This document shows positions 1 to 19,535 of a stretch of 64,000 nt of DNA, in pieces. Origin of the DNA: Propionispora vibrioides. Its GTDB lineage: Bacteria; Bacillota; Negativicutes; Propionisporales; Propionisporaceae. The translations under genes and the position numbers were made by a program. Numbering within the stretch: position 1 is the stretch's first letter; each line of letters begins with the position of its first letter. The stretch is from NCBI RefSeq assembly GCF_900110485.1, contig NZ_FODY01000026.1, forward strand, positions 1 through 64,000, in the 5' to 3' direction. The notes below the pieces were generated by a model. The model ran no database searches and was not told where the DNA came from. It was given only the letters and a program-made list of their open reading frames with translations.

Positions 1-326
1 AAGTTTCCGTTCTTGTTTTGGCTGCAGTAATGGGTGAAGCCGAGAAAGTCGAATGTCCCTGGTTTGCCTTCCCCTCTTTTGTTCCGCCTTTCCACGGCGA
101 AACGTCCGAATTCGATGATCTTTGTTTTCTCCTCTGCTATCTCTAGGTTGAATTTTCTTAATCGTTCTTTCAACTTACCGTAGAAATCTTCCGCATCATC
201 TTGGTATTGAAAGAAGCATACAAAGTCATCACAATACCGGATTATGTAGGCTTCGCCTCTGCATTCCCGCTTTATCTTTACCGTAAACCACAAGTCCAGT
301 ACATAGTGCAGGTATAAAAAAGACAT
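1..326 (-). pseudogene. Group II intron reverse transcriptase/maturase, 5'-truncated fragment
   Basis: The minus strand reads 108 codons without a stop. It contains the RT catalytic box as YCDDFV (family form YADD), the preceding YLHYVLDLWF segment and the FDFLGFTHYC segment, all typical of LtrA-type intron-encoded proteins that splice and reverse-transcribe group II introns. The N-terminal half of the RT is missing: homology stops right at a GACATGGGGACGG-type repeat at about 324-330. The C-terminal end runs off the window edge, so whether the maturase and endonuclease domains survive cannot be seen. No intron 5' end or domain V is visible here. Almost certainly non-functional. Confidence 0.85.
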
Positions 327-383
327 GGGGACGGTGGTACTGTCTCACTTTATTTTAATAAATCTTTCCTTCAAAAAACACTC
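323..383. repeat. GACGGTGGT-type repeat, copy 1
   Basis: A roughly 60-bp unit starting GGGGACGGTGGTACTGTC and running through TTTATTTTAATAAATC. It recurs almost unchanged at about 415-476. It abuts the truncated reverse transcriptase directly. Short GACGGTGGT-like sequences of this kind are scattered in many Firmicute genomes; here it marks a recombination junction. Confidence 0.75.
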
Positions 384-414
384 AGAAGGACAAAGGGACG
401 ATGGTTCCGGAAAG

Positions 415-476
415 ACACAGGGACGGTGGTACTGTCTTACTTTATTTTAATAAATCTTTCCTTCAAAAAAGCACTC
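415..476. repeat. GACGGTGGT-type repeat, copy 2
   Basis: This is the second copy of the 323-383 unit, differing at a few positions (CTTACTTT for CTCACTTT and one extra base near the end). A degenerate third relative lies at about 756-785 (GGGAACGGTGGGTACCGTC), and a fourth core (GGGGACGGTGGTTGTGTC, minus strand) ends the pentapeptide gene near 820-837. The stretch 477-812 otherwise shows no supported gene. Confidence 0.7.
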
Positions 477-812
477 ACACTCTCTCTGTTTCTAAAATAG
501 GCAGATGGGTTGTTGTTTTTTTAACAATTTGCCCGTCTTTGCCGCAAAAGGGACAGCGGACGATGGTTCTGTCCTATAAGACACTTCCTCCGGCCCCCGC
601 CTTCTATTTCTTCAAAACAAGAGGGAGGTTCATTATCCTAGGTATGTCCGATCGCTTAACAGCCGTGAACGTCTTTTCCCGTTAACTTTTTACTACAATA
701 CATCTAATATTCCAGTCCCTATAGGCTATCAATCGCAACCGGTTCCTTCGCAGGAGACACGGGAACGGTGGGTACCGTCTTCCTTTATACATCTCTCCGA
801 TAAATTCTTTCC

Positions 813-1154
813 TCAAGACACAACCACCGTCCCCAAGCCTTTTCCCAGCTTGCAGTTGGTTAACTGTACACGGTCCATAAAACAATGAGTGAAATCTACA
901 TTGGAAAGATCACATTGATCAAAAACAGTATCAGTTAGTTTGAGGGCCGGCCAATGTACAGAGTTAAAAACAACATTCTTAAACAGAACTTGGCTAATGG
1001 CAACATTTGCGGCAGTCTGAGTTCCCAATGTACAGTCTTGTATCAGGCTGAGTGCCACGGAGTCTTCCTCACGAAGCTCATTTATAGATGCCAAGGGCAA
1101 TTCGTTCGGCAGATTGGGCATTAATAATTTAGACTTAGCGGGTTTTTTACTCAT
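813..1154 (-). pseudogene. Pentapeptide-repeat protein, 3'-truncated
   Basis: The start at 1154 follows a GAGGTAA ribosome-binding site; the in-frame GTG/ATG further upstream has none. About 100 residues look native: a short polar N-terminus, then loose five-residue repeats (for example VLFKN VVFNS, DTVFD QCDLS NVDFT), the pattern that folds into a right-handed quadrilateral beta-helix. After CKLGKG the frame enters a GACGGTGGT-type repeat and stops, giving an abnormal GLGTVVVS tail. Pentapeptide proteins of this kind are usually considerably longer, so I call this a gene cut by the repeat. Function of the intact family member is unknown. Confidence 0.65.
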
Positions 1155-1265
1155 AATATTTACCTCACGTAACATTTAACTATAATTCCATGTTTTTCTA
1201 TGATTTAACAACGTATGGACAAAGTAATAACGCCTATTATATCTTACTATTTCGGGTGAATCCAT

Positions 1266-1369
1266 AAAACTCCTGTAAAATTCATACAAATTATAAACAG
1301 CACCAATGCTAGGGACACTTTCGGCGAGCCAAAAGCATTAAAAACACTAATTCCAACGCAGGAGTTTTC
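1266..1369. repeat. Long-loop inverted repeat AAAACTCCTG / GCAGGAGTTTT
   Basis: The arms lie at 1266-1275 and 1359-1369. They match the ACTCCTGC / GCAGGAGT element seen at six other places in this window (9.4, 13.2, 14.7, 39.2, 40.1 and 63.8 kb), but here with a loop of about 80 bases. Confidence 0.5.
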
Positions 1370-1389
1370 ACCATTCTTTTATCTGCGGT

Positions 1390-1512
1390 CTATTCCATAG
1401 TTCTAAATTTTTTATCAAGCCACTTACAAAAAAGAGGATTAAAGCCAAACACCTCATCCTCAAACTGTTCTTCTAGAAGTAGTAAATTCGGGGTAATCCC
1501 CCGTCTACTCAC
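1390..1512 (-). CDS. Small uncharacterised ORF (40 aa)
   Basis: A 40-codon frame from GTG at 1512, rich in acidic and aromatic residues (EEQFEDEVFGFNPLF, then KWLDKKFRTME). The composition looks protein-like rather than random, but the upstream ribosome-binding site is poor and I recognise no family. It may be the 3' remnant of a longer gene. The rest of 1155-1675 shows no other coding signal. Confidence 0.25.
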   Translation of the reverse strand: MSRRGITPNLLLLEEQFEDEVFGFNPLFCKWLDKKFRTME

Positions 1513-1675
1513 ACGAGAAACTTAGCAACCACCGACTGACCTGTTCTTTTAGCCTGGAAACCCGCAGGCAAGGTTTACACCACAAAATACGTAAGTGCCA
1601 AGGAGTAGACAAAAAGAATCGGTACGTTGTCTTCAAGATCTAGACTGCTAAATGTTTTTGCACAGTCTGACTTCC

Positions 1676-2764
1676 CTAGCAATCCAGCCAATCGTCTATT
1701 TCTGGTTTTCTAGCCACGTCCCATTTAAATATTCGCGGTTTTTCTGAACAGTATTTACATAAACTAATAGCATCATCCAATGCATTAATCCGTCCGGTAA
1801 AATCATCCATATACAGATTTACTCCGCTATCTATTGGCAAATTGTCTATGCCAAAATACTCTTTATATTTATACATTAAGCCATCTAAGGGGCATTTGTA
1901 TAACTTACCTTCTCGTAAAAAACGACATCCTCTATTAAAACACTTTTCTTGTGATATTTGTGGATTATTTTTTCCATGCATGGTTAAAAGAGCATTAAAA
2001 GTCTCTATATCAATAGAAAATCGGTAACGAAGATCATACGCATCTAGTTTTTTTATAATACTGTGTTTTATTTTACGAGTGGGCTGATAACTAGAAATAT
2101 CAAAACTAATATTATATTGTTTCATCACGTGAAATAACACGTCCTCTTTTTGCTGCAAAATTAACAATCCATTAGTAACAATTCTAATATCTGTACTTGG
2201 AAGTATGGTCCTAGTAATTTTAATATATTGTACCAGATCAGGATTCAATAATGGCTCTCCACCCAATAAACGAAAGTATAATATGTTAAAATTCTCCTCT
2301 AATTTACTCAAATCTTTTTTGAATAATTCAATATCGTAAATACTATTGTTAGTATATAAATTGGAAAAATGGGTACATCCCTTACATTTTAAATTACAAG
2401 AATCTATAATATTTGTTTCTAGATATGGCATAATCTCTTTTTTCAAGTCTAGCCAGAAAATATCCTTTATACTAATCTCTTTTCCAGACATAAATATGTA
2501 AGCAGGCACTATTCCAATCTTGTTAATACCTGCCATTCTCAACTTTTTCACAACATCCTTGAATGGAATTTCTTTTAACATACCAATTAAAACGATATCT
2601 AATTCTTCCAAATATTTTTCTGGAAGTAATATAATCTGAGTTCCATTTAGAGTTAACGCATCCCTATTTTGATCAATGAAATATTCTACAGATATTTTCT
2701 CATTGTTAAAATATTGTTTGATATATTTCCCAAATTCCCCCGTTCCCCATACCGCTGCTATCAT
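1676..2764 (-). CDS. Radical SAM protein with N-terminal Rossmann-like domain
   Basis: This is a 362-residue protein. Residues 1-90 look like a nucleotide-binding Rossmann-type domain (VWGTGEFGKYI near the start), as found in sugar-modifying enzymes. A radical SAM core follows with the 4Fe-4S motif CNLKCKGC (Cys123, 127, 130) and GGEP at 168-171 for SAM binding. The C-terminal part has extra cysteines (about 275, 280, 291 and a CKYC pair near 338) that could hold an auxiliary cluster, SPASM-like. It is the last gene of a three-gene operon, 21 bases after the glycosyltransferase-like gene, with a good AGAGGGG site. Family: predicted glycan or peptide modification. Substrate unknown. Confidence 0.8.
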   Translation of the reverse strand: MIAAVWGTGEFGKYIKQYFNNEKISVEYFIDQNRDALTLNGTQIILLPEKYLEELDIVLIGMLKEIPFKDVVKKLRMAGINKIGIVPAYIFMSGKEISIKDIFWLDLKKEIMPYLETNIIDSCNLKCKGCTHFSNLYTNNSIYDIELFKKDLSKLEENFNILYFRLLGGEPLLNPDLVQYIKITRTILPSTDIRIVTNGLLILQQKEDVLFHVMKQYNISFDISSYQPTRKIKHSIIKKLDAYDLRYRFSIDIETFNALLTMHGKNNPQISQEKCFNRGCRFLREGKLYKCPLDGLMYKYKEYFGIDNLPIDSGVNLYMDDFTGRINALDDAISLCKYCSEKPRIFKWDVARKPEIDDWLDC

Positions 2765-2785
2765 AAATATTCCCCTCTTTATGCT

Positions 2786-3724
2786 TTAATCTTCCTTCCT
2801 TTGATAAAAATACTCAAACATAAATTGATGCAATTTAAGCTTATCACTAGACCATTCCCATACTAGATTGTGTGGATTAATTCTAATATCTGTATCAGGG
2901 TCAAAGTCGTTAAGAGCATAATGTAAGCACTTTTCCCTGTAAAGTCTATTTTTTGACTCTCCGTGGTATAAATGAAATATATTGTAATTCATATAATATA
3001 TACTATTATTAACTATATTAAACGCTTTTTCTGCCCATAAAATTTGATGTGCCTTGCATTTAGGAGGGAGCTTTTCTGTATATCCCGTAACAGGAACTCC
3101 TATAAACGCATGAGCCATAACAGAATCTCCTTCTCCCAAAATGGCTGCATCATAAAACCCTATTTTGTCAAACAACTCTCGTCGCCCTGCCCAGCAATAC
3201 CCTTTATGTCCACAATATTTATCTGTTGAGAATCCTTCATTAGTGACAACATAAGCAAAACTAGGAAGCTTCTCTCCGTTGTTACCACCAACTGCCCGAT
3301 TTGTAATATCAACAGGAAACTTTTCCTCACATGTTAACTTATATGCGTTTTTAAATGGCTGAATGATATAATAATTATCTAATAATTTTGCTGTTTCAGT
3401 TACCCAATTTTTATTTTCAAAAAGTATATCACAATCAATCCATATAATTTTCTTACACTCCCTAGGCAGTTTCTTCAGACCTATATTTAAAAGTCTTTCT
3501 TTTTGCCACATAATGCTATTACCTTTGGCTTTCACATAAATCATAATATCGGCATCATTCTTTGTAAGTTCATAATTTGCATCATTAAAAGCTAATTCTA
3601 CACATAAAAGATTCAATCCATTACGTTTTGATTCTTGACGAAAAGTCAAATAATTTTCTTTTTTAGATTTATATTTAGCCGGATTAAAATACGTTGTGAT
3701 TCCCCATATATCATTTGTAGCCAT
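2786..3724 (-). CDS. Glycosyltransferase-like protein (GT-A fold)
   Basis: The 312-residue protein has the hallmarks of a nucleotide-sugar glycosyltransferase of the GT-A type: a beta-strand ending in WIDCDILF, giving a DxD metal-binding motif at Asp97/Asp99, and a later CWAGRRELFDKIGFYD segment resembling the acceptor region of GT2-like enzymes. There is no signal peptide or membrane span, so it should be cytosolic. It sits between two radical SAM genes with spacings of about 20 bases and an AGGAGGT ribosome-binding site, so the three are probably co-translated. I cannot name the donor or acceptor sugar. The locus is markedly more AT-rich than genes beyond 6 kb. Confidence 0.7.
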   Translation of the reverse strand: MATNDIWGITTYFNPAKYKSKKENYLTFRQESKRNGLNLLCVELAFNDANYELTKNDADIMIYVKAKGNSIMWQKERLLNIGLKKLPRECKKIIWIDCDILFENKNWVTETAKLLDNYYIIQPFKNAYKLTCEEKFPVDITNRAVGGNNGEKLPSFAYVVTNEGFSTDKYCGHKGYCWAGRRELFDKIGFYDAAILGEGDSVMAHAFIGVPVTGYTEKLPPKCKAHQILWAEKAFNIVNNSIYYMNYNIFHLYHGESKNRLYREKCLHYALNDFDPDTDIRINPHNLVWEWSSDKLKLHQFMFEYFYQRKED

Positions 3725-3742
3725 ATTATTACCTCCTGAATT

Positions 3743-4852
3743 TTACAAAAGTGTGGGTTCTAATTCATTGACATCTTCAAGACGTCTTTCTTTATTATTA
3801 AGATAATTTTCAATAATAGAGTCAAATCTATAGTGACGGCAAGCTTTTAATGGACATACTTTATTTTTCATTTTTAAATCATAGTAATTAGCGTCCAAAT
3901 GGTTAGAATAGTCACTTGTAATATTGATATTGCAATAAGCATTTTTATTATCATAGGGAGATGCAACGCATGGAAATAAATCTCCGTTAGTTCGCAATAA
4001 AGCGTATAATCCCGTCGCAGCAATATAACAAGACCGTGGAATAGGGTTATTGAATACCGGATCGTCCAGATTATCTAAGAGATAATCGTATTTTGATAAA
4101 ATATGGCTACCCTTTAGAGTTTCACGAACTTGTTGTAAGTTTATAGCACCATTCAGCGTTTTGTTTTCTAAAAAATTTTGTTCTAATTTAATCACTATTG
4201 AATCACAATCAAATTGTTCCAAATAATTTATATAATAATTCAATTCTGTGTAATTTTGATTTCTCATCAAAAATTTCATCGTTATTGTTTGATTGTCTTT
4301 TCTTCTCTCAAATAAAGTCTTAATGTTATTATCTATAGAGCTAAATACATCTAAGCCACATTCTTGTATTGTACTTTCTTTATCATAACCAACTACATGA
4401 ATTTGGTAAAAATCAATTTTATTTAGAATATTTTTCATGTTACTTAGATTGTATAGATTCGTAGATGTTCCTATATGCCAAGATCTATTATGTTCAACTC
4501 TTTCTACAAAATCTTCCCATCTATTCCATCCTGACGGATCGCCACCACCTGAAAAAAATATTGTTTTTAGATCACTTTTATTATAATAATTTACTAAATC
4601 AATTAGTCTATCAAAATTAATTACCATTCCACTATGACGACTTCCATAGGAACACCCATTGCATTTTAGTTGGCAGAAGTTAACAGGATGGACTTCCAAT
4701 TCCCATATAGAATTTTTCACGTTATGCAATTTTCTCTTTTGATAAGCATTGATTATTTTTTCTAATTTAAAATCGGGAAAAGCGTGCTTTTTAGTCAAAA
4801 TAATTGCCTGATGTGGAAGAAACCTTCCATTTCGTATAATATAAATTCCCAT
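3743..4852 (-). CDS. Radical SAM protein with C-terminal cysteine cluster
   Basis: A 369-residue radical SAM enzyme with the cluster motif CQLKCNGC (Cys60, 64, 67). The usual GGEP SAM-binding motif is replaced by SGGGDPSGW (101-109). Several C-terminal cysteines (SCYIA, FPC, YCNI, CPLKAC) suggest an auxiliary iron-sulfur cluster of the SPASM/twitch kind, common in enzymes modifying peptides or carbohydrates. It is the first gene of the cassette, behind a promoter at 4901-4929. Its ribosome-binding site AAAGGGGG lies partly inside an inverted repeat (4854-4886). No precursor-peptide gene is convincing nearby. Exact reaction unknown. Confidence 0.8.
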   Translation of the reverse strand: MGIYIIRNGRFLPHQAIILTKKHAFPDFKLEKIINAYQKRKLHNVKNSIWELEVHPVNFCQLKCNGCSYGSRHSGMVINFDRLIDLVNYYNKSDLKTIFFSGGGDPSGWNRWEDFVERVEHNRSWHIGTSTNLYNLSNMKNILNKIDFYQIHVVGYDKESTIQECGLDVFSSIDNNIKTLFERRKDNQTITMKFLMRNQNYTELNYYINYLEQFDCDSIVIKLEQNFLENKTLNGAINLQQVRETLKGSHILSKYDYLLDNLDDPVFNNPIPRSCYIAATGLYALLRTNGDLFPCVASPYDNKNAYCNINITSDYSNHLDANYYDLKMKNKVCPLKACRHYRFDSIIENYLNNKERRLEDVNELEPTLL

Positions 4853-4853
4853 G

Positions 4854-4886
4854 AAAAATACCCCCTTTATTTTGTTGGGTATTTTT
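4854..4886 (-). promoter_or_regulatory. Inverted repeat covering the ribosome-binding site of the 3743-4852 gene
   Basis: The arms AAAAATACCC (4854-4863) and GGGTATTTTT (4877-4886) are exactly complementary, with a 13-base loop. On the minus-strand mRNA the stem takes in part of the AAAGGGGG site just before the ATG at 4852, so folding could limit translation. Read on the plus strand the same sequence resembles a short terminator. Confidence 0.4.
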
Positions 4887-4900
4887 TACTCAACAGGTAC

Positions 4901-4929
4901 AATATACAATATATTCTTTTAATCCACAA
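4901..4929 (-). promoter_or_regulatory. Sigma-A-type promoter for the radical SAM operon
   Basis: On the minus strand, TTGTGG (4924-4929) and TATATT (4901-4906) are separated by exactly 17 bases, upstream of the first gene of the cassette. Confidence 0.5.
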
Positions 4930-5048
4930 TACATATTCATTAAATTAAAAAGATATTATTTTATATGAATAATTGCATGTTATTTACAGCTACATTGATT
5001 AGTTGTATTCTTATACTGTATAGTCATCTTTTATAAGGAGTGTTTTTT

Positions 5049-5684
5049 ATGAATGGATTACCTATATCGGTAAAAGGTGTTTTAAAAAAGAATGATAAAT
5101 ACCTATTACGTATAAACGAACGAAATGAATATGAGTTATTAGGAGGACATTTAGAAGCAAATGATTTTACTATAAAAGATAGATTAAAAACTGAATTTCG
5201 TGAGGAATCTGGAATTGAGATTGACGTGTGCGAACTTTATGAACCTTGGCTTTATGAAATTGGAGAGTCCTCTGTGCTTATCATTCCCTTTTTTTGTAGC
5301 CCACGATCTACTCCTAACACTCTTATCGATCAAGATGGTGGACGTCTTGAGTGGGTTGATGAAAACCGCATTGTCTCTCTCCCTATGCCTCAAGGATATA
5401 AAGACACTATTCTTAAGGTACAACCACATAAAAGTTATTCAAAACCAGCAAAGAAATATTTCAAAATTATTCCTAATTACCAAGAAACAAAATTTCATAT
5501 TATTGTTACAATTCATGAGAAGCATGAAGTTCTACTTAGCCAAGCGCTCCCTACAAATGCTTCCCCTATGGATTTTGCTCTTTATTCTTTACAAATGACT
5601 GGTCGGCGCTACAAAACCATTAGAATACATGATTTATCACTGTGTAAGCAAACCTTATCTTTGAATTACGAAACTCTGTCTTGA
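5049..5684 (+). CDS. Nudix hydrolase
   Basis: The ATG at 5049 is chosen because AAGGAG sits eight bases before it; an in-frame GTG at 5040 overlaps that site. Residues 32-57 carry a slightly altered Nudix box: GGHLE at the start, then EFREESGI, which keeps the catalytic Glu-Glu pair. Nudix enzymes cleave nucleoside diphosphates linked to another group, such as NDP-sugars or ADP-ribose. The C-terminal 70 residues beyond the Nudix fold are not recognised. The gene is divergent from the radical SAM/glycosyltransferase operon across a 196-base region and shares its AT-rich composition, so it may belong to the same functional unit. Substrate not predictable. Confidence 0.75.
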   Translation: MNGLPISVKGVLKKNDKYLLRINERNEYELLGGHLEANDFTIKDRLKTEFREESGIEIDVCELYEPWLYEIGESSVLIIPFFCSPRSTPNTLIDQDGGRLEWVDENRIVSLPMPQGYKDTILKVQPHKSYSKPAKKYFKIIPNYQETKFHIIVTIHEKHEVLLSQALPTNASPMDFALYSLQMTGRRYKTIRIHDLSLCKQTLSLNYETLS

Positions 5685-5738
5685 CTTTATTTTTCTCATT
5701 AGTTTAGCCGGGCAGTTTTTGCAGGTAAGCGAGCGGAC

Positions 5739-5787
5739 AAAAAAGCGACAGCTAGACTGTTTTAACCAGGAATGTCGCTCTTTTTTA
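5739..5787. terminator. Bidirectional terminator between the Nudix and MFS genes
   Basis: The hairpin arms AAAAAAGCGACA and TGTCGCTCTTTTTT are followed by a T-run, and an A-run serves the opposite strand. It lies between the convergent Nudix (+) and MFS (-) genes. Confidence 0.75.
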
Positions 5788-5830
5788 TAGTAGTCCGCTA
5801 ACTTCACAGAAACAAGTTATATTCATTTTC

Positions 5831-7048
5831 TTAATGGCTCCGCTGCGTTGCCAGGAAGCTTGCTTCAATACAGGCTATTTTTCTTTTAAAAATAATTACA
5901 ACAACTATGGCAATCAGCAGAGGCACAACCATGACGCGCCACATAATTCTATAGCCGAAGGTCTGGGCAACTAAGCCAGCAAAAGTGGGGCCCAGTAGGT
6001 TTCCGATATCCATGCCGACAAAATTGGTGCTGCTCCCTGCGCCCCGGCGTTCATTGGGGACACACTTCATAGCCAACGCCTGAATGGCCGGCTGGCATGC
6101 ACCAAAACCAAAAGAAGCTAAAAACGCGGCCAGCAGAAAGCTGGAAAGCGTATGGGAAACACTGATGATAAAAAAAGAAATTACATCGCAAAAAAGTGCG
6201 GGAGTAAATACCCTGACAAAGCCGAACCGGTCGGTGAGCTTGCCGACGATGGGTCTTGTAAAGATCATCGTTATGGCCGAAACGGTGAAATACAGGCTAA
6301 TGTCTGATCCAACTCCCTGTTCATTGGCAAAGACGACCAGAAAAGAATTTACCACACAAAACGCCATGATGATAAAAACCAGCACGGTGGCCGGTAAAAA
6401 TGCTTCTTTGGCAAGAATGTTGTTTAACGTTATTTTCAATTTTTTAGTTCGCTTATAGCGAATTTTGATCTTAAAAGCCAAAAACGCGGCCAGCAGCATG
6501 ACACCGGCATTAAAGGCAAACGTCAGATGGTATCCGATCTGGCTGACAAGCCACAGTCCGACCGTTGGCCCGCTGGCCTGGGCCACCACCTGCGCCAGCG
6601 AATAGTAGCCGATTCCGGCTCCATACTTACTCTTGGGTAATGTCTCAGCCACCATAGCCAGGCAGCAAACATTGCCAAAGGCCTGGCCGCAGCCTTGCAG
6701 AATGCGAAAGGCTATCAGTGACGGTACGCTTTGCGACAGGCTATATCCCAGGAAGGCTGCCGTCATCGTAACCATGGCGCCCGCCACCAGATATTTCCGG
6801 TTATAGGTATCCATCGCCGGGGCCGACACCACTTTAAAAAGCAAGGCCGAAACGGCGAACGTACTCATCAGAACGCCAATGGCCGAAGCGGAAGCGCCCA
6901 GTGAATCGGCATAGATGGCCAATAGAGCATTACTCATATACTGAGCCAGATTCATCACCATATTGGCAAAAAAGATGCTAATAAACATGAAATTCCATAT
7001 CTTGGTTTGTTCCTGCGGCTCACTCTGAGCATCGGTTTGCTTCACCAT
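5831..7048 (-). CDS. MFS transporter, 12-span type
   Basis: A 405-residue integral membrane protein with about twelve hydrophobic spans. It has the MFS loop signature between spans 2 and 3 (MDTYNRKYLVAG) and a second copy in the other half (VGKLTDRFGF). Length and loops fit drug or metabolite exporters of the DHA1-like group in the cytoplasmic membrane. A GGAGG site lies seven bases before the ATG at 7048. It is transcribed alone and ends at the 5739-5787 terminator. No regulator adjoins it, so the substrate cannot be inferred from context. Confidence 0.85.
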   Translation of the reverse strand: MVKQTDAQSEPQEQTKIWNFMFISIFFANMVMNLAQYMSNALLAIYADSLGASASAIGVLMSTFAVSALLFKVVSAPAMDTYNRKYLVAGAMVTMTAAFLGYSLSQSVPSLIAFRILQGCGQAFGNVCCLAMVAETLPKSKYGAGIGYYSLAQVVAQASGPTVGLWLVSQIGYHLTFAFNAGVMLLAAFLAFKIKIRYKRTKKLKITLNNILAKEAFLPATVLVFIIMAFCVVNSFLVVFANEQGVGSDISLYFTVSAITMIFTRPIVGKLTDRFGFVRVFTPALFCDVISFFIISVSHTLSSFLLAAFLASFGFGACQPAIQALAMKCVPNERRGAGSSTNFVGMDIGNLLGPTFAGLVAQTFGYRIMWRVMVVPLLIAIVVVIIFKRKIACIEASFLATQRSH

Positions 7049-7163
7049 ATTGACTGCCTCCGGTTCACTACCCCTGATTATAAATCAAGAGACTTAGTTG
7101 TTATACCAACTATTATATCAGCTCAGCAGCTAGTTTGAAAACATCTATAACGGATAGTTGCCT

Positions 7164-7271
7164 GACCGCTATGGTTGGGCCAGGGCTTACTTTATCATCC
7201 TATTCTTGGGTTTAGCCCTACTGTTTACCATCTCTTTACTTTATCGGCACCAAAACAACAAAACCATGTAG
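7164..7271 (+). pseudogene. C-terminal fragment of an MFS transporter
   Basis: Thirty-five in-frame codons read DRYGWARAYFII then one hydrophobic helix, ending YRHQNNKTM and a TAG stop. The helix and basic tail closely resemble the C-terminus of the MFS remnant at 11.0-11.9 kb (LFFCLALLLTITIIRRNKNK). No start or further homology lies upstream, so this is a relic, followed at once by a strong hairpin. Confidence 0.6.
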
Positions 7272-7286
7272 CAGCAGATGGTATAG

Positions 7287-7339
7287 CAGGAACAGGAGAT
7301 ATCGCCAACCGTTTAGCGACATCTCCTGTTCCTGTTTTT
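7287..7339. terminator. Hairpin of the GGAGxTxTCGC family, with T-tail
   Basis: A 19-base stem with one mismatch (CAGGAACAGGAGATATCGC, 7287-7305, against 7316-7334) is followed by TTTTT. Its core GGAGATATCGC / GCGACATCTCC resembles the GGAGGTGTCGC / GCGACACCTCC hairpins at 10.0, 11.9, 13.1 and 18.7 kb. Confidence 0.65.
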
Positions 7340-7348
7340 GGGAAGCGA

Positions 7349-7885
7349 TTATTCAATTTGCCAAGGCTTCTTGTCCTTGTCCAAATGCTTTCTTGCCAGC
7401 TGATAAACTTGTTGCACTGATTTTTGTGATATATCCCAGGTTTGAAGTTCTGCTTCGACTAATTCTCCATGTTTCTTACTAATGTCCTTTAAGGCATTGC
7501 CTACTGATTTCCTTACATATTCACTAGGGTCATTTCTCAAGTTTGCAAGCAGTTTTATCGCTTCATCGGGGTTTTGTTTGAAATACTCCCGGCCGGTCCA
7601 GATCCGTAATCCCTCGGTAACAGCTCTTCTGACATTGGGATTGCTATGGTTTAGCCATTCTTTAATGATCGGCAGTGAATTCTCATAGCCACGCTCATGA
7701 CAAAACCGTTCAAAGGCTTTGGCCAGGATCTCCTGGACTTGCCAGCTTTTATCTAAACTAACCTCTTCTTTTAAAAAGACTAATGCCTCGTGCAATCTGC
7801 CTGAAATGGCAACACAGATAAATGCACTTGATAATGCTCTGACTGGTAATATTCCTTTGCCAGCAAGAAACAAGCCTGTACTGAA
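7349..7885 (-). pseudogene. HEAT-repeat protein, decayed copy
   Basis: From about residue 60 to the end it is close to 90% identical to the intact HEAT-repeat protein at 18750-19364 (shared LHEALVFLKE, NHSNPNVRRAV, ELVEAELQTWD). Compared with that copy it has lost 13 bases after the CATTATCAAGT codons (about 7830), which shifts the frame. Upstream of the shift the other frame still reads ACFLLAKEYYQSEHYQ. The first 30 or so codons are absent. The continuous frame extends to 7960 only by accident. It also carries a short extra C-terminal tail (DKDKKPWQIE). Confidence 0.75.
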
Positions 7886-8140
7886 AACCATCTGAGACGG
7901 TTCGTTCAATTCGCCAAGCTCTCTTCTTCTACACCCTCCAACTCGGCAGACCATCTCCAAGAGTGATCTAGATAGTAATTCCTAAATAACAGCGGCTACT
8001 AACCCTTATAGGCAAAGACGGCGTGCAGTCTTTGCTTATCTCAGACCAGTCGCCGTCTTTCTTACTTCTTAGCAATACATATTTATTTAAAATACGAGAC
8101 TTATAAAAAAACTCTGTTCCGCTACTATTCATAGAGCAAA

Positions 8141-9420: not shown

Positions 9421-9620
9421 TAATTATTTTATGACAGCAAGTCTCCGTCGCCTTATTGCTATCATTCTAACCTATTTTGTCAGTCTGACAATTTATGTAG
9501 AAAACAGTTGCGCATTTACGTTGTTACTATCCGTTCTAATTCTCGCGAGTTATTCTAACAATATATGGTAACTTCATGTATAATTATATTGTGGATTTTA
9601 ATGATAAGGGAGTTGTTACT

Positions 9621-9998
9621 TTGGGGTTTTTAGATTCTGTTCTTGGCAATGCGTCCGAAGTTGATATTAGTGCTATCCAAAATGATTACGCTAGAATTCT
9701 CGCCAATAACGAGAGAATTGAAAAAGCGTATCGACTCATTCGTGATATGTTCCTATTTACGGATAAGCGCCTGATTTTAGTGAATATACAAGGAATTACC
9801 GGCAAAAAGGTTGAGTATCATTCCATCCCCTACCGCGCCATAACCCATTTTAGTATTGAAACCGCCGGACATTTTGATCTGGATGCAGAACTCAAAATTT
9901 GGATTTCCGGTACAGATACTCCCATTGAAAAGAAATTCAATAAGAACCTTAACATTTATGAACTGCAAGGTGTACTTGCCTCCTATACATTGCGCTAA
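9621..9998 (+). CDS. Bacterial PH-domain protein (YvbH-like), copy 1
   Basis: I choose the TTG at 9621: AAGGGA lies nine bases upstream and the sequence then begins LGFLDSVLGNASEVD, the usual start of this family (about 125 aa). The upstream ATG frame covers the promoter. The protein is a single pleckstrin-homology-like beta-barrel domain (bPH, DUF1696 type), cytosolic, with no catalytic motif; the family function is unsettled. It is over 90% identical to the copy at 18290-18667, and the upstream 130 bases are also duplicated. A perfect hairpin (10033-10065) follows the stop codon. Confidence 0.75.
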   Translation: MGFLDSVLGNASEVDISAIQNDYARILANNERIEKAYRLIRDMFLFTDKRLILVNIQGITGKKVEYHSIPYRAITHFSIETAGHFDLDAELKIWISGTDTPIEKKFNKNLNIYELQGVLASYTLR

Positions 9999-11023: not shown

Positions 11024-11890
11024 ATGTTAGGTACCCTTTTTGCTCGTATCTTTCAATTGCCGATTGGACTTCTCACCTTATTAATCGCTGTTTCCGAGGG
11101 GCAGGCATGGGGCTGGGATTCAGTCCGGGTTTTGGGGCTATTGGTAACAACATTGCTAATGGGCGTTCTGTTTATAAACATAGAGCTGCAGAGCAATCAT
11201 CCACTATTCGATCTTACATTGCTTCATAATGGGGACTATGCCGCCGGACTGGGTATTACATTAAAATTATTGCATAGGTTACTTTGCTATTACATTCTTG
11301 TTGACTATTTACTTACAGGGAACTTTGCAATTAAGCCCGTTACAATCGGGATTGCTAATCATTCTCCTGTCAGTCCCCCAGCTAATTATGGGACCACTGG
11401 GAGGTATCCTCGCCGATCGCTTCGGAGCAGTTCGCATGATGTTAGCCGGCCTTATTCTGCTTACTTTGAGCCTATATACGCTAGGAAATCTCGGCATCTA
11501 CCTATCCGTCGTCTCCATCATTACGCCGCTGATTTTTATTTCCGTTGCCAACGGTATTGCCTTGCCATCCTTAGCCAAAACCGTTCTTTCGTCTGTTCCC
11601 CCAGAACATGCAGGAGCTGCTTTCGGAATGTTTTATACGATTTATAATGTAGGAAGGTCATTAAGCCAACCCTCAGCCATGGCCGTAATGCAGTTTACTA
11701 TATCATCAGATATAATATAATATCACACCTATTATCACAAACGTCAGGTATGCATGATCAGGCGCCCCGCCTTCTGCTTGTTAATTCCATAATAACACCT
11801 TCCGCTTTATCATTTTATTCTTTTGTTTAGCCTTACTGCTTACCATCACCATAATTCGTCGAAACAAAAACAAAAAGCCATGCACTAGAA
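11024..11890 (+). pseudogene. DHA2-family multidrug exporter, C-terminal half with frameshifts
   Basis: Two overlapping frames join into the second half of a 14-span EmrB/QacA-type exporter. The first (11024 to about 11290) carries SEGQAWGWDSVRVLGLL. The second (about 11298-11720) carries SPLQSGLLIILLSVPQL, GGILADRFGAVRMMLAG and GMFYTIYNVGRSLSQP. A third short piece near 11800-11885 gives the last helix, LFFCLALLLTITIIRRNKNK. At least two frame changes and loss of the N-terminal seven or so spans make it non-functional. It differs in sequence from the intact exporter at 20876-22240. Confidence 0.8.
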
Positions 11891-18039: not shown

Positions 18040-18289
18040 ATTCAAACACTTACCTCCGCGGAATATTTGTCTTATTATACTATATAGCAAAGATACTTGC
18101 TCATTACTTAGATAAAATTATATATCAACCAAAAATCGCCCGCAGAGATGCAGGGCAGACTCCTGAATAGAAAACAGTTGGACATTTACGTTGTTCAATA
18201 TCCCTAAATTTTCACGAGTTGTTCTAACTATATCTGTTAACTCCATGTATAATGATATTGTGGATTTTAATGATAAGGGAGTTGTTACT

Positions 18290-18667
18290 TTGGGATTTTT
18301 AGATTCAGTTCTGGGCAATGCATCAGAAGTAAATATTAGTACTGTCCAAAATGAATACGCTAGTATTCTCGCAAATAACGAGAGAATTGAAAAGGCCTAT
18401 CGACTCATTCGTGATATGTTCATATTCACGGACAAACGCCTGATTTTAGTGAATATCCAAGGGATTACCGGCAAAAAGGTTGAGTATCATTCCATACCTT
18501 ATCGTGCCATAACCCATTTTAGTATTGAAACCGCCGGTCATTTTGACCTTGATGCTGAGCTCAAAATCTGGATTTCCGGGACTGACACTCCCATTGAAAA
18601 GAAATTCAATAAGAATCTCAACATTTATGAACTGCAGAGTGTGCTTGCCACATATATATTACGCTAA
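18290..18667 (+). CDS. Bacterial PH-domain protein (YvbH-like), copy 2
   Basis: It uses the same TTG start and AAGGGA site as copy 1 at 9621 and has the same 125-residue length. Differences are few (for example NASEVN for NASEVD, and QSVLATYILR for QGVLASYTLR at the end). The shared block extends about 130 bases upstream, including AGAAAACAGTTG and ATGTATAATGATATTG, so promoter and gene were duplicated together. The protein is one PH-like domain without catalytic residues. It is convergent with the intact HEAT-repeat gene, and a perfect hairpin lies between the two stops. Confidence 0.75.
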   Translation: MGFLDSVLGNASEVNISTVQNEYASILANNERIEKAYRLIRDMFIFTDKRLILVNIQGITGKKVEYHSIPYRAITHFSIETAGHFDLDAELKIWISGTDTPIEKKFNKNLNIYELQSVLATYILR

Positions 18668-18749: not shown

Positions 18750-19364
18750 CTACTTTTCCAGATGCTTTCTTGCCAGCTTATATACTTGTTGTGCTGATTT
18801 TTGCGATAGATCCCAGGTTTGCAGTTCTGCTTCTACTAATTCTCCATGCTTCTTACTGATGTCCTTTAAAGCATTGCCAACTGATTTCCTTACATATTCA
18901 CTGGGGTCATTCCTTACGTTCGCAAGCAGTTTTATCGCTTCGCCTGGGTTTTGTTTGAAATAATCCCGGCCCGTCCATATCCGTAATCCCTCGATAACAG
19001 CTCTTCTGACATTAGGATTACTATGGTTCAGCCATTCTTCCATGACCGGCAGTGAATTTTCATAGCCACGATCATGACAAAACCGGTCAAATGCTTTGGC
19101 CAGTATTTCCTGAACTTGCCAGCTTGTATCCAAACTAACCGCTTCTTTTAAAAAGACTAATGCTTCGTGCAATCCGCTTGAAATGGCACCACAGATAAAT
19201 GCAGCCAAGGACCTGACTTGATAATGTTCCGATTGATAATACTCTTTTGCCATCAAGAAACAATCATGTACCGAATGATTGCTGATAATTAGGTTAGCAG
19301 CATGTTCTGTTTCTTTAAATCCATTCTCTATTTTTGTTATCTTTTCAATCATATCTTCATACAT
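18750..19364 (-). CDS. HEAT-repeat protein
   Basis: The 204-residue protein is built of paired helices of about 30 residues (QVRSLAAFICGAISSGLHEA, HSNPNVRRAVIEGLRIWTG, DPSEYVRKSVGNALKDISKK), the layout of HEAT/ALK-type alpha-solenoids. Family members either bind protein partners or, in the DNA-alkylation-repair-like branch (AlkD), bind DNA; I see no clear AlkD catalytic residues. It is soluble. The intact copy corresponds to the broken one at 7349-7885. The start at 19364 is preceded by a modest AGGTGAT site; a GTG nine bases earlier is the alternative. Confidence 0.75.
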   Translation of the reverse strand: MYEDMIEKITKIENGFKETEHAANLIISNHSVHDCFLMAKEYYQSEHYQVRSLAAFICGAISSGLHEALVFLKEAVSLDTSWQVQEILAKAFDRFCHDRGYENSLPVMEEWLNHSNPNVRRAVIEGLRIWTGRDYFKQNPGEAIKLLANVRNDPSEYVRKSVGNALKDISKKHGELVEAELQTWDLSQKSAQQVYKLARKHLEK

Positions 19365-19535
19365 AAATATCACCTATGTACAGCATACTCCTCAGAATTA
19401 CATTTTCGCAATTACTTTGAAGCAGATACGGTGATTTTTCTTCGTGGAGCAGAGGGGCGCTCTTTTTATTTCCATATTTTAAGTAGTCCAATGTTTGGGA
19501 TGTACTTCAACCGAAGCGGGGATTGTTATTGCTTT

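Follow-up and report, generated by a model that had tools for sequence, protein, structure and literature searches.

A candidate glycan-tailoring cassette of two radical SAM enzymes and a GT-A type glycosyltransferase in Propionispora vibrioides

Main finding

The stretch of DNA analyzed in this study (64,000 nucleotides, referred to as the window) opens contig 26 of the Propionispora vibrioides genome, which has a size of 4.43 Mb. Near its left end, a glycosyltransferase gene (GT) is enclosed by genes for two radical SAM enzymes (rSAM1 and rSAM2), with a Nudix-type hydrolase gene in divergent orientation. We interpret the GT and the two radical SAM genes as a horizontally acquired glycan-tailoring cassette and put the probability of this reading slightly above one half (about 0.55). 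The case for it is built on a GT family that recurs next to radical SAM genes as well as in loci for surface polysaccharides, and on the composition and patchy occurrence of the genes.

Organization of the locus

The original prediction of three tightly spaced genes and a divergent Nudix gene was borne out at the predicted positions (Table 1). On the minus strand the gene order is rSAM2, GT, rSAM1; 18 bp separate the first two genes and 21 bp the last two, and each of the three has a good Shine-Dalgarno sequence in front of it. Co-oriented and closely spaced as they are, they probably constitute one operon. Consensus promoter matches are present in the intergenic region between rSAM2 and the Nudix gene, as sequence matches only and not as evidence of function.

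Table 1. Features at the left end of the window, in window coordinates
Feature	Position	Strand	Basis and remarks
Group II intron-type reverse transcriptase fragment	1..330	-	Translation; named from its motif (YCDDF); edge of the variable segment, outside the cassette
Pentapeptide-repeat ORF	813..1175	-	Composition normal; located downstream of the cassette; terminates in a REP-like repeat
rSAM1	1676..2764	-	Rossmann-like N-terminal domain (1 to ~105); core C123/C127/C130; twitch-type C-terminus (C275, C291, C336, C339); PF04055, E 4e-10
GT, GT-A type glycosyltransferase, uncharacterized	2786..3724	-	D97xD99; H251xxHG; 51-sequence alignment; AF2 model, pLDDT 95.5; Foldseek GT-A; at least 244 relatives in genome contigs
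rSAM2, first gene	3743..4852	-	PF04055, E 2e-8; CX3CX2C (C60/C64/C67); GGGDP; CX14GX4C (C275-C295); C338; invariant Cys; top match of the model DesII
Divergent AT-rich intergenic region	4853..5048	.	Presumed promoters of the cassette and the Nudix gene
Nudix-type hydrolase with C-terminal extension	5049..5684	+	Divergent; Pfam NUDIX, E 5e-4; PHROG MutT/NUDIX, 3e-7; same GC3 class
MFS transporter	5831..7048	-	GC3 0.56, opposite composition; also absent from relatives

The pentapeptide-repeat ORF and the MFS transporter gene are probably not part of the cassette. No tRNA or Rfam element was found near it. A match to a known surface-glycan locus, named beforehand as evidence against the prediction, did not emerge: no exporter, polymerase or sugar-nucleotide gene accompanies the GT, neither within the cassette nor among the next genes, with the left side visible as far as base 1, where the contig ends. 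REP-like palindromic repeats (GGGACGGTGGTACTGTC) lie at 328-346, 420-438 and 765-779, and the end of the pentapeptide-repeat ORF falls inside similar sequence.

The two radical SAM enzymes

Both proteins carry the CX3CX2C motif and exceed the Pfam Radical_SAM cut-off of 29.5 bits (rSAM1 with 40.4, rSAM2 with 35.1 bits), and thus are two distinct members of the superfamily, as had been predicted. The same holds for the additional C-terminal cysteines, which are conserved among 21 relatives of rSAM1 and 26 of rSAM2. In the former alignment the core cysteines and the four C-terminal ones listed in Table 1 are invariant and C280 is nearly so. In the latter, whose members (also used for the structure model) share 14-21% identity with rSAM2, the core cysteines are kept and C275, C295 and C338 are invariant as well. 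A CX9-15GX4C motif at residue 275 is common to both enzymes and, with four invariant C-terminal cysteines in rSAM1 and three in rSAM2, the arrangement is of the twitch/SPASM type; the Pfam SPASM domain (PF13186) matched neither of them. Because these cysteine sets represent conserved twitch/SPASM-type motifs, a second Fe-S cluster is probable in both enzymes, as predicted from the family motif.

The Rossmann-like N-terminal domain that had been assigned to one of the enzymes is present in rSAM1, beginning with GTGEFG. Among solved structures, the closest relative of rSAM1 is a '4Fe-4S cluster-binding domain-containing protein' of 322 aa (PDB 7wzv/7wzx/7x0b; E 2e-13 with the single sequence, 3.6e-37 with the profile), the match covering the core and the C-terminus but not the N-terminal domain. 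Literature searches turned up no useful link for 7wzv and none that connects radical SAM enzymes with O-antigen loci. BtrN, the twitch radical SAM dehydrogenase that acts on 2-deoxy-scyllo-inosamine in butirosin biosynthesis, resembles rSAM1 in having, besides the radical SAM core, a second cysteine set of the twitch type, and the profile alignment spans both (E 2.5e-7 over residues 117-351). In contrast to BtrN, however, rSAM1 has the extra N-terminal domain and adjoins a glycosyltransferase, and the similarity is remote. Homology over the core and twitch region would place rSAM1, if remotely, among the BtrN-like sugar/cyclitol dehydrogenases. With the sugar epimerases NeoN and HygY the comparison was made by literature descriptions only; BtrN oxidizes, while NeoN epimerizes via Cys249 (PMC10991966). 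NF033640 (N_Twi_rSAM, a family of radical SAM proteins with a twitch domain) matched rSAM1 with only 22.5 bits at a cut-off of 170, and rSAM2 not at all. No relative of rSAM1 was detected in viral contigs.

The replacement of GGEP by GGGDP, predicted for the other radical SAM enzyme, is present in rSAM2. It is a minor change, since GGG[E/D]P is usual among its own relatives. The structure model of rSAM2 is modest overall (pLDDT 68), with a core of 85-95, and its fold search ranked DesII first and BlsE 14th, with SPASM-type peptide maturases close behind DesII. DesII is a deaminase of TDP-sugars and thus an NDP-sugar enzyme, and BlsE is the cytosylglucuronate decarboxylase. Both are, however, only weakly similar to rSAM2 in sequence, and the sequence profile favors the peptide maturases SuiB and SkfB (E 4e-16) over DesII (1e-7), which counts against a sugar substrate. 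No close relative of rSAM2 was found in viral contigs, plasmids, phages or genome contigs. One distant relative adjoins a LegB dehydratase gene in another genome of the class (535 bits, cut-off 475); another occurs in phage HTVC008M together with carbamoyltransferase and sugar-nucleotide dehydrogenase genes. These two settings, like the fold match to DesII, count for a sugar substrate.

The glycosyltransferase family and its neighborhoods

The protein between the two radical SAM enzymes had been called GT-A-like with a DxD motif. It has no match in Pfam, NCBIfam, PHROG or among PDB sequences, but its confident model retrieved the GT-A enzymes WrtF, K4CP and TarS by Foldseek (E ~1e-6 to 1e-5, with TM scores of only 0.4-0.46), and D97xD99 is kept without exception across 51 relatives, in agreement with that assignment. 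With WrtF, TarS/TarP and K4CP it shares the GT-A fold and the DxD motif, and several of its relatives stand in surface-glycan settings, while it differs from them in lacking any detectable Pfam or PDB sequence match. Of the relatives in genome contigs, 80 were fetched; hosts include Methanoregula, Nanoarchaeota, Patescibacteria, Omnitrophota, Nostoc, Sphingomonas and Streptomyces. Further relatives are encoded in viral contigs, in Xanthomonas phage XaC1 and on Burkholderiaceae plasmids. Apparently, the GT represents a large, undescribed family.

The four genes were found together in none of the 80 GT loci, and neither the full quartet nor a pair of GT and rSAM2 was found in any other genome searched. 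Thus there is no conserved four-gene system. The proposed neighborhood survey nevertheless showed that the pairing of GT with radical SAM genes recurs. By BLAST, the 80 loci contained rSAM1-like genes only, never rSAM2 or Nudix: in Streptomyces griseocarneus (L107) such a gene lies 28 bp downstream of the GT, and its product is much nearer to 7wzv (E 9e-75) than rSAM1 is; in a Brocadiia MAG (L101) one lies ~0.9 kb upstream. Radical SAM genes of any type stand directly beside the GT in L056, L069, L073, L074, L107 and L109, those of L073 and L109 including NF033640. Among the nearest ORFs on each side of the GT, 5 of 121 were radical SAM genes, compared to 0 of 274 ORFs at distances above 5 kb (Fisher's test, p=0.0025). 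This value serves as a guide only, because the test was designed after a first look at the neighborhoods, independence among the loci is incomplete and the five genes fall into different subtypes. A Pfam scan detected PF04055 in 5 of 117 nearest neighbors, which places it, with GT1/GT4 glycosyltransferases, among the commonest families there; ABC transporters are also among these neighbors. That the radical SAM neighbors belong to several unrelated subtypes counts against the glycan-tailoring reading. In L051, L052, L056 and L069, inspected by eye, the GT is surrounded by ABC-2 exporters, other glycosyltransferases or sugar epimerases, and we read these as surface-polysaccharide loci.

In a Blastocatellia MAG (L073, 2129-4692), the GT is directly followed by a tandem pair of twitch-type radical SAM genes, of which the first is NF033640. 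The viral relatives (L002-L012 and L049: viral contigs, one of them 533 kb long, and phage XaC1) lack radical SAM neighbors, and a phage origin of the cassette was rejected, as the fetched GT relatives from phage contigs have no such neighbor. On plasmids of Cupriavidus and Burkholderia (L047, 7998-8921; L048, 5983-6924) the gene next after the GT is in each case one of unknown function, apparently similar in the two, and PRTRC genes lie near the Cupriavidus copy. Proteins of ~800 aa from the same class (L020, L023, L025, L028) consist of TPR repeats joined to a DxD-bearing domain that Pfam does not recognize, a stretch resembling a Rossmann fold and a domain of the rSAM1 type. Homology of the cassette GT to their middle domain is unsupported (hhalign probability 0.1), and these fusions were therefore not counted as evidence for a link between GT and radical SAM enzymes.

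Composition and probable acquisition

The AT-richness predicted for the cassette, and its sharing by the Nudix gene, are evident from GC3 values of 0.22-0.26, the four lowest among the 55 ORFs of the window that served as comparison set (mean 0.41). At the thresholds applied, none of the four proteins was detected in the three nearest genomes. Within the order, the other three genomes gave no rSAM2 match at E<=1e-3, and 380 genomes of the class gave only one weak relative. The GT has no relative in the class, and the Nudix protein has one other among 379 genomes. For rSAM1, 46 of the 379 class genomes have a relative, mostly in one other family, and its own genus and family have none at 1e-20.

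A congener (G001) is largely collinear with the window from base 7377 rightward, in blocks of 77-95% identity, while positions 1-7376 have no match in it and other genes stand in their place. Because the cassette has the lowest GC3, has no relatives in the same genus at these thresholds and lies in a part without counterpart in the syntenic congener, it probably sits in a variable, acquired segment. With the reverse transcriptase fragment of group II intron type that opens the contig as a further line of evidence, the proposed acquisition by transfer is well supported.

The Nudix gene and the search for a precursor

For the Nudix gene, ATG at 5049 (RBS AAGGAG) is a likelier start than GTG at 5040. 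Its product scores 20.6 bits against a Pfam gathering cut-off of 21.1 and has a degenerate Nudix box compared to GX5EX7REUXEEXGU, with E-F-R-E-E kept; no relatives were found in viral contigs. As a partner of the cassette it had been predicted from its composition, and it does share the low GC3. BLAST found it in none of the 80 GT loci. Tied to the cassette by position and composition only, it may be an accessory. The suggested search for a conserved small precursor gene came out negative: the cassette and its flanks hold no credible small ORF, and no small gene recurs beside the GT-rSAM pairs looked at.

Proposed function and alternative explanations

Radical modification of a nucleotide sugar, glycan or glycopeptide had been proposed. 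The best, though indirect, reading is that a sugar or glycan is modified; no precursor peptide was found. In such a pathway, both radical SAM enzymes would reduce SAM to a 5'-deoxyadenosyl radical, which would take a hydrogen from a sugar carbon. The BtrN-like rSAM1 might oxidize or epimerize a hydroxyl-bearing carbon: in a dehydrogenation the auxiliary cluster would accept the electron, whereas in an epimerization a cysteine, for example the nearly invariant C280, would give the hydrogen back, as Cys249 does in NeoN. BlsE, which decarboxylates a nucleoside sugar (PMC3715490), is a further precedent beside BtrN and NeoN. rSAM2 could bring about a further change or work on a different position, and the GT would transfer the sugar, before or after modification, onto a cell-surface glycan or glycolipid acceptor. 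The donor sugars would come from the host, and the Nudix enzyme may remove or provide intermediates linked to nucleotides. Several observations count against a glycan: most rSAM1 relatives that were fetched from the class have no recognizable glycan locus within ~1.3 kb, the cassette itself lacks exporter, polymerase and sugar-nucleotide genes, and neither the quartet nor GT with rSAM2 was found in another genome.

Alternatively, the genes could be coincidental neighbors in an acquired AT-rich island without a common pathway. The lack of conservation of the set would fit, as would the variable region with its REP-like repeats and intron fragment, but spacing of 18 and 21 bp on one strand, a common composition and a GT-rSAM pairing above background in other phyla make this unlikely. 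Quite unlikely is a small-molecule cassette, in which an aminocyclitol- or nucleoside-like compound is made and glycosylated, with chemistry as in BtrN, NeoN, BlsE and DesII, and exported by a transporter. This explanation draws on BtrN as the closest characterized full-length relative of rSAM1, on DesII and BlsE among the best fold matches of rSAM2, on the row of GT, rSAM and HAD phosphatase genes in the Streptomyces locus and on the nearby MFS gene. However, the latter is of opposite composition, the GT relatives lean to polysaccharide loci, and the cassette is devoid of a cyclitol synthase, an aminotransferase or a resistance gene.

Finally, the radical SAM enzymes might alter a peptide that the GT then glycosylates, i.e., mature a RiPP or glycopeptide. 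While SuiB and SkfB are nearest to rSAM2 by profile and SPASM-type maturases come near DesII in its fold search, the missing precursor ORF and recurring small gene, along with the absence of a protease or peptide exporter from the cassette, render this very unlikely.

Within the preferred glycan-tailoring reading, one might tentatively speculate further: an undescribed GT-A family and interchangeable radical SAM enzymes could form a mobile module that puts C-H-functionalized (oxidized, epimerized or deoxygenated) sugars on surface glycans in bacteria and archaea, here with two different radical steps in a single operon. Antibiotics are the main source of what is known about sugar chemistry by radical SAM enzymes. 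Evidence of its recurrence beside a single GT family in the context of surface glycans would hint at sugars yet to be explored on the surfaces of anaerobes and archaea, with a bearing on how phages adsorb and how cells interact with hosts. Represented in genomes, jumbo phages and plasmids, the GT family is directly testable.

Additional observations

Elsewhere in the genome of P. vibrioides, a locus beside flagellin (G000:C4:117297-127302, L210/L211) comprises LegB together with genes for an aminotransferase-like protein, for a nucleotidyltransferase and for large proteins resembling GTs. It is a probable locus for flagellin glycosylation with a legionaminate-type sugar. Its parallel to the LegB gene next to the distant rSAM2 relative is suggestive only, because the host's own LegB locus has no radical SAM gene. 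Within the window, a gene pair for a HEAT-repeat protein and an unknown protein of ~140 aa is duplicated (7349-7960 with 9576-9998, and 18191-18667 with 18750-19373); one copy of the pair was seen in the congener G001 (L204, 17596-18875). In addition, an MFS drug-efflux gene at 11024-11720 is apparently split into two overlapping frames.
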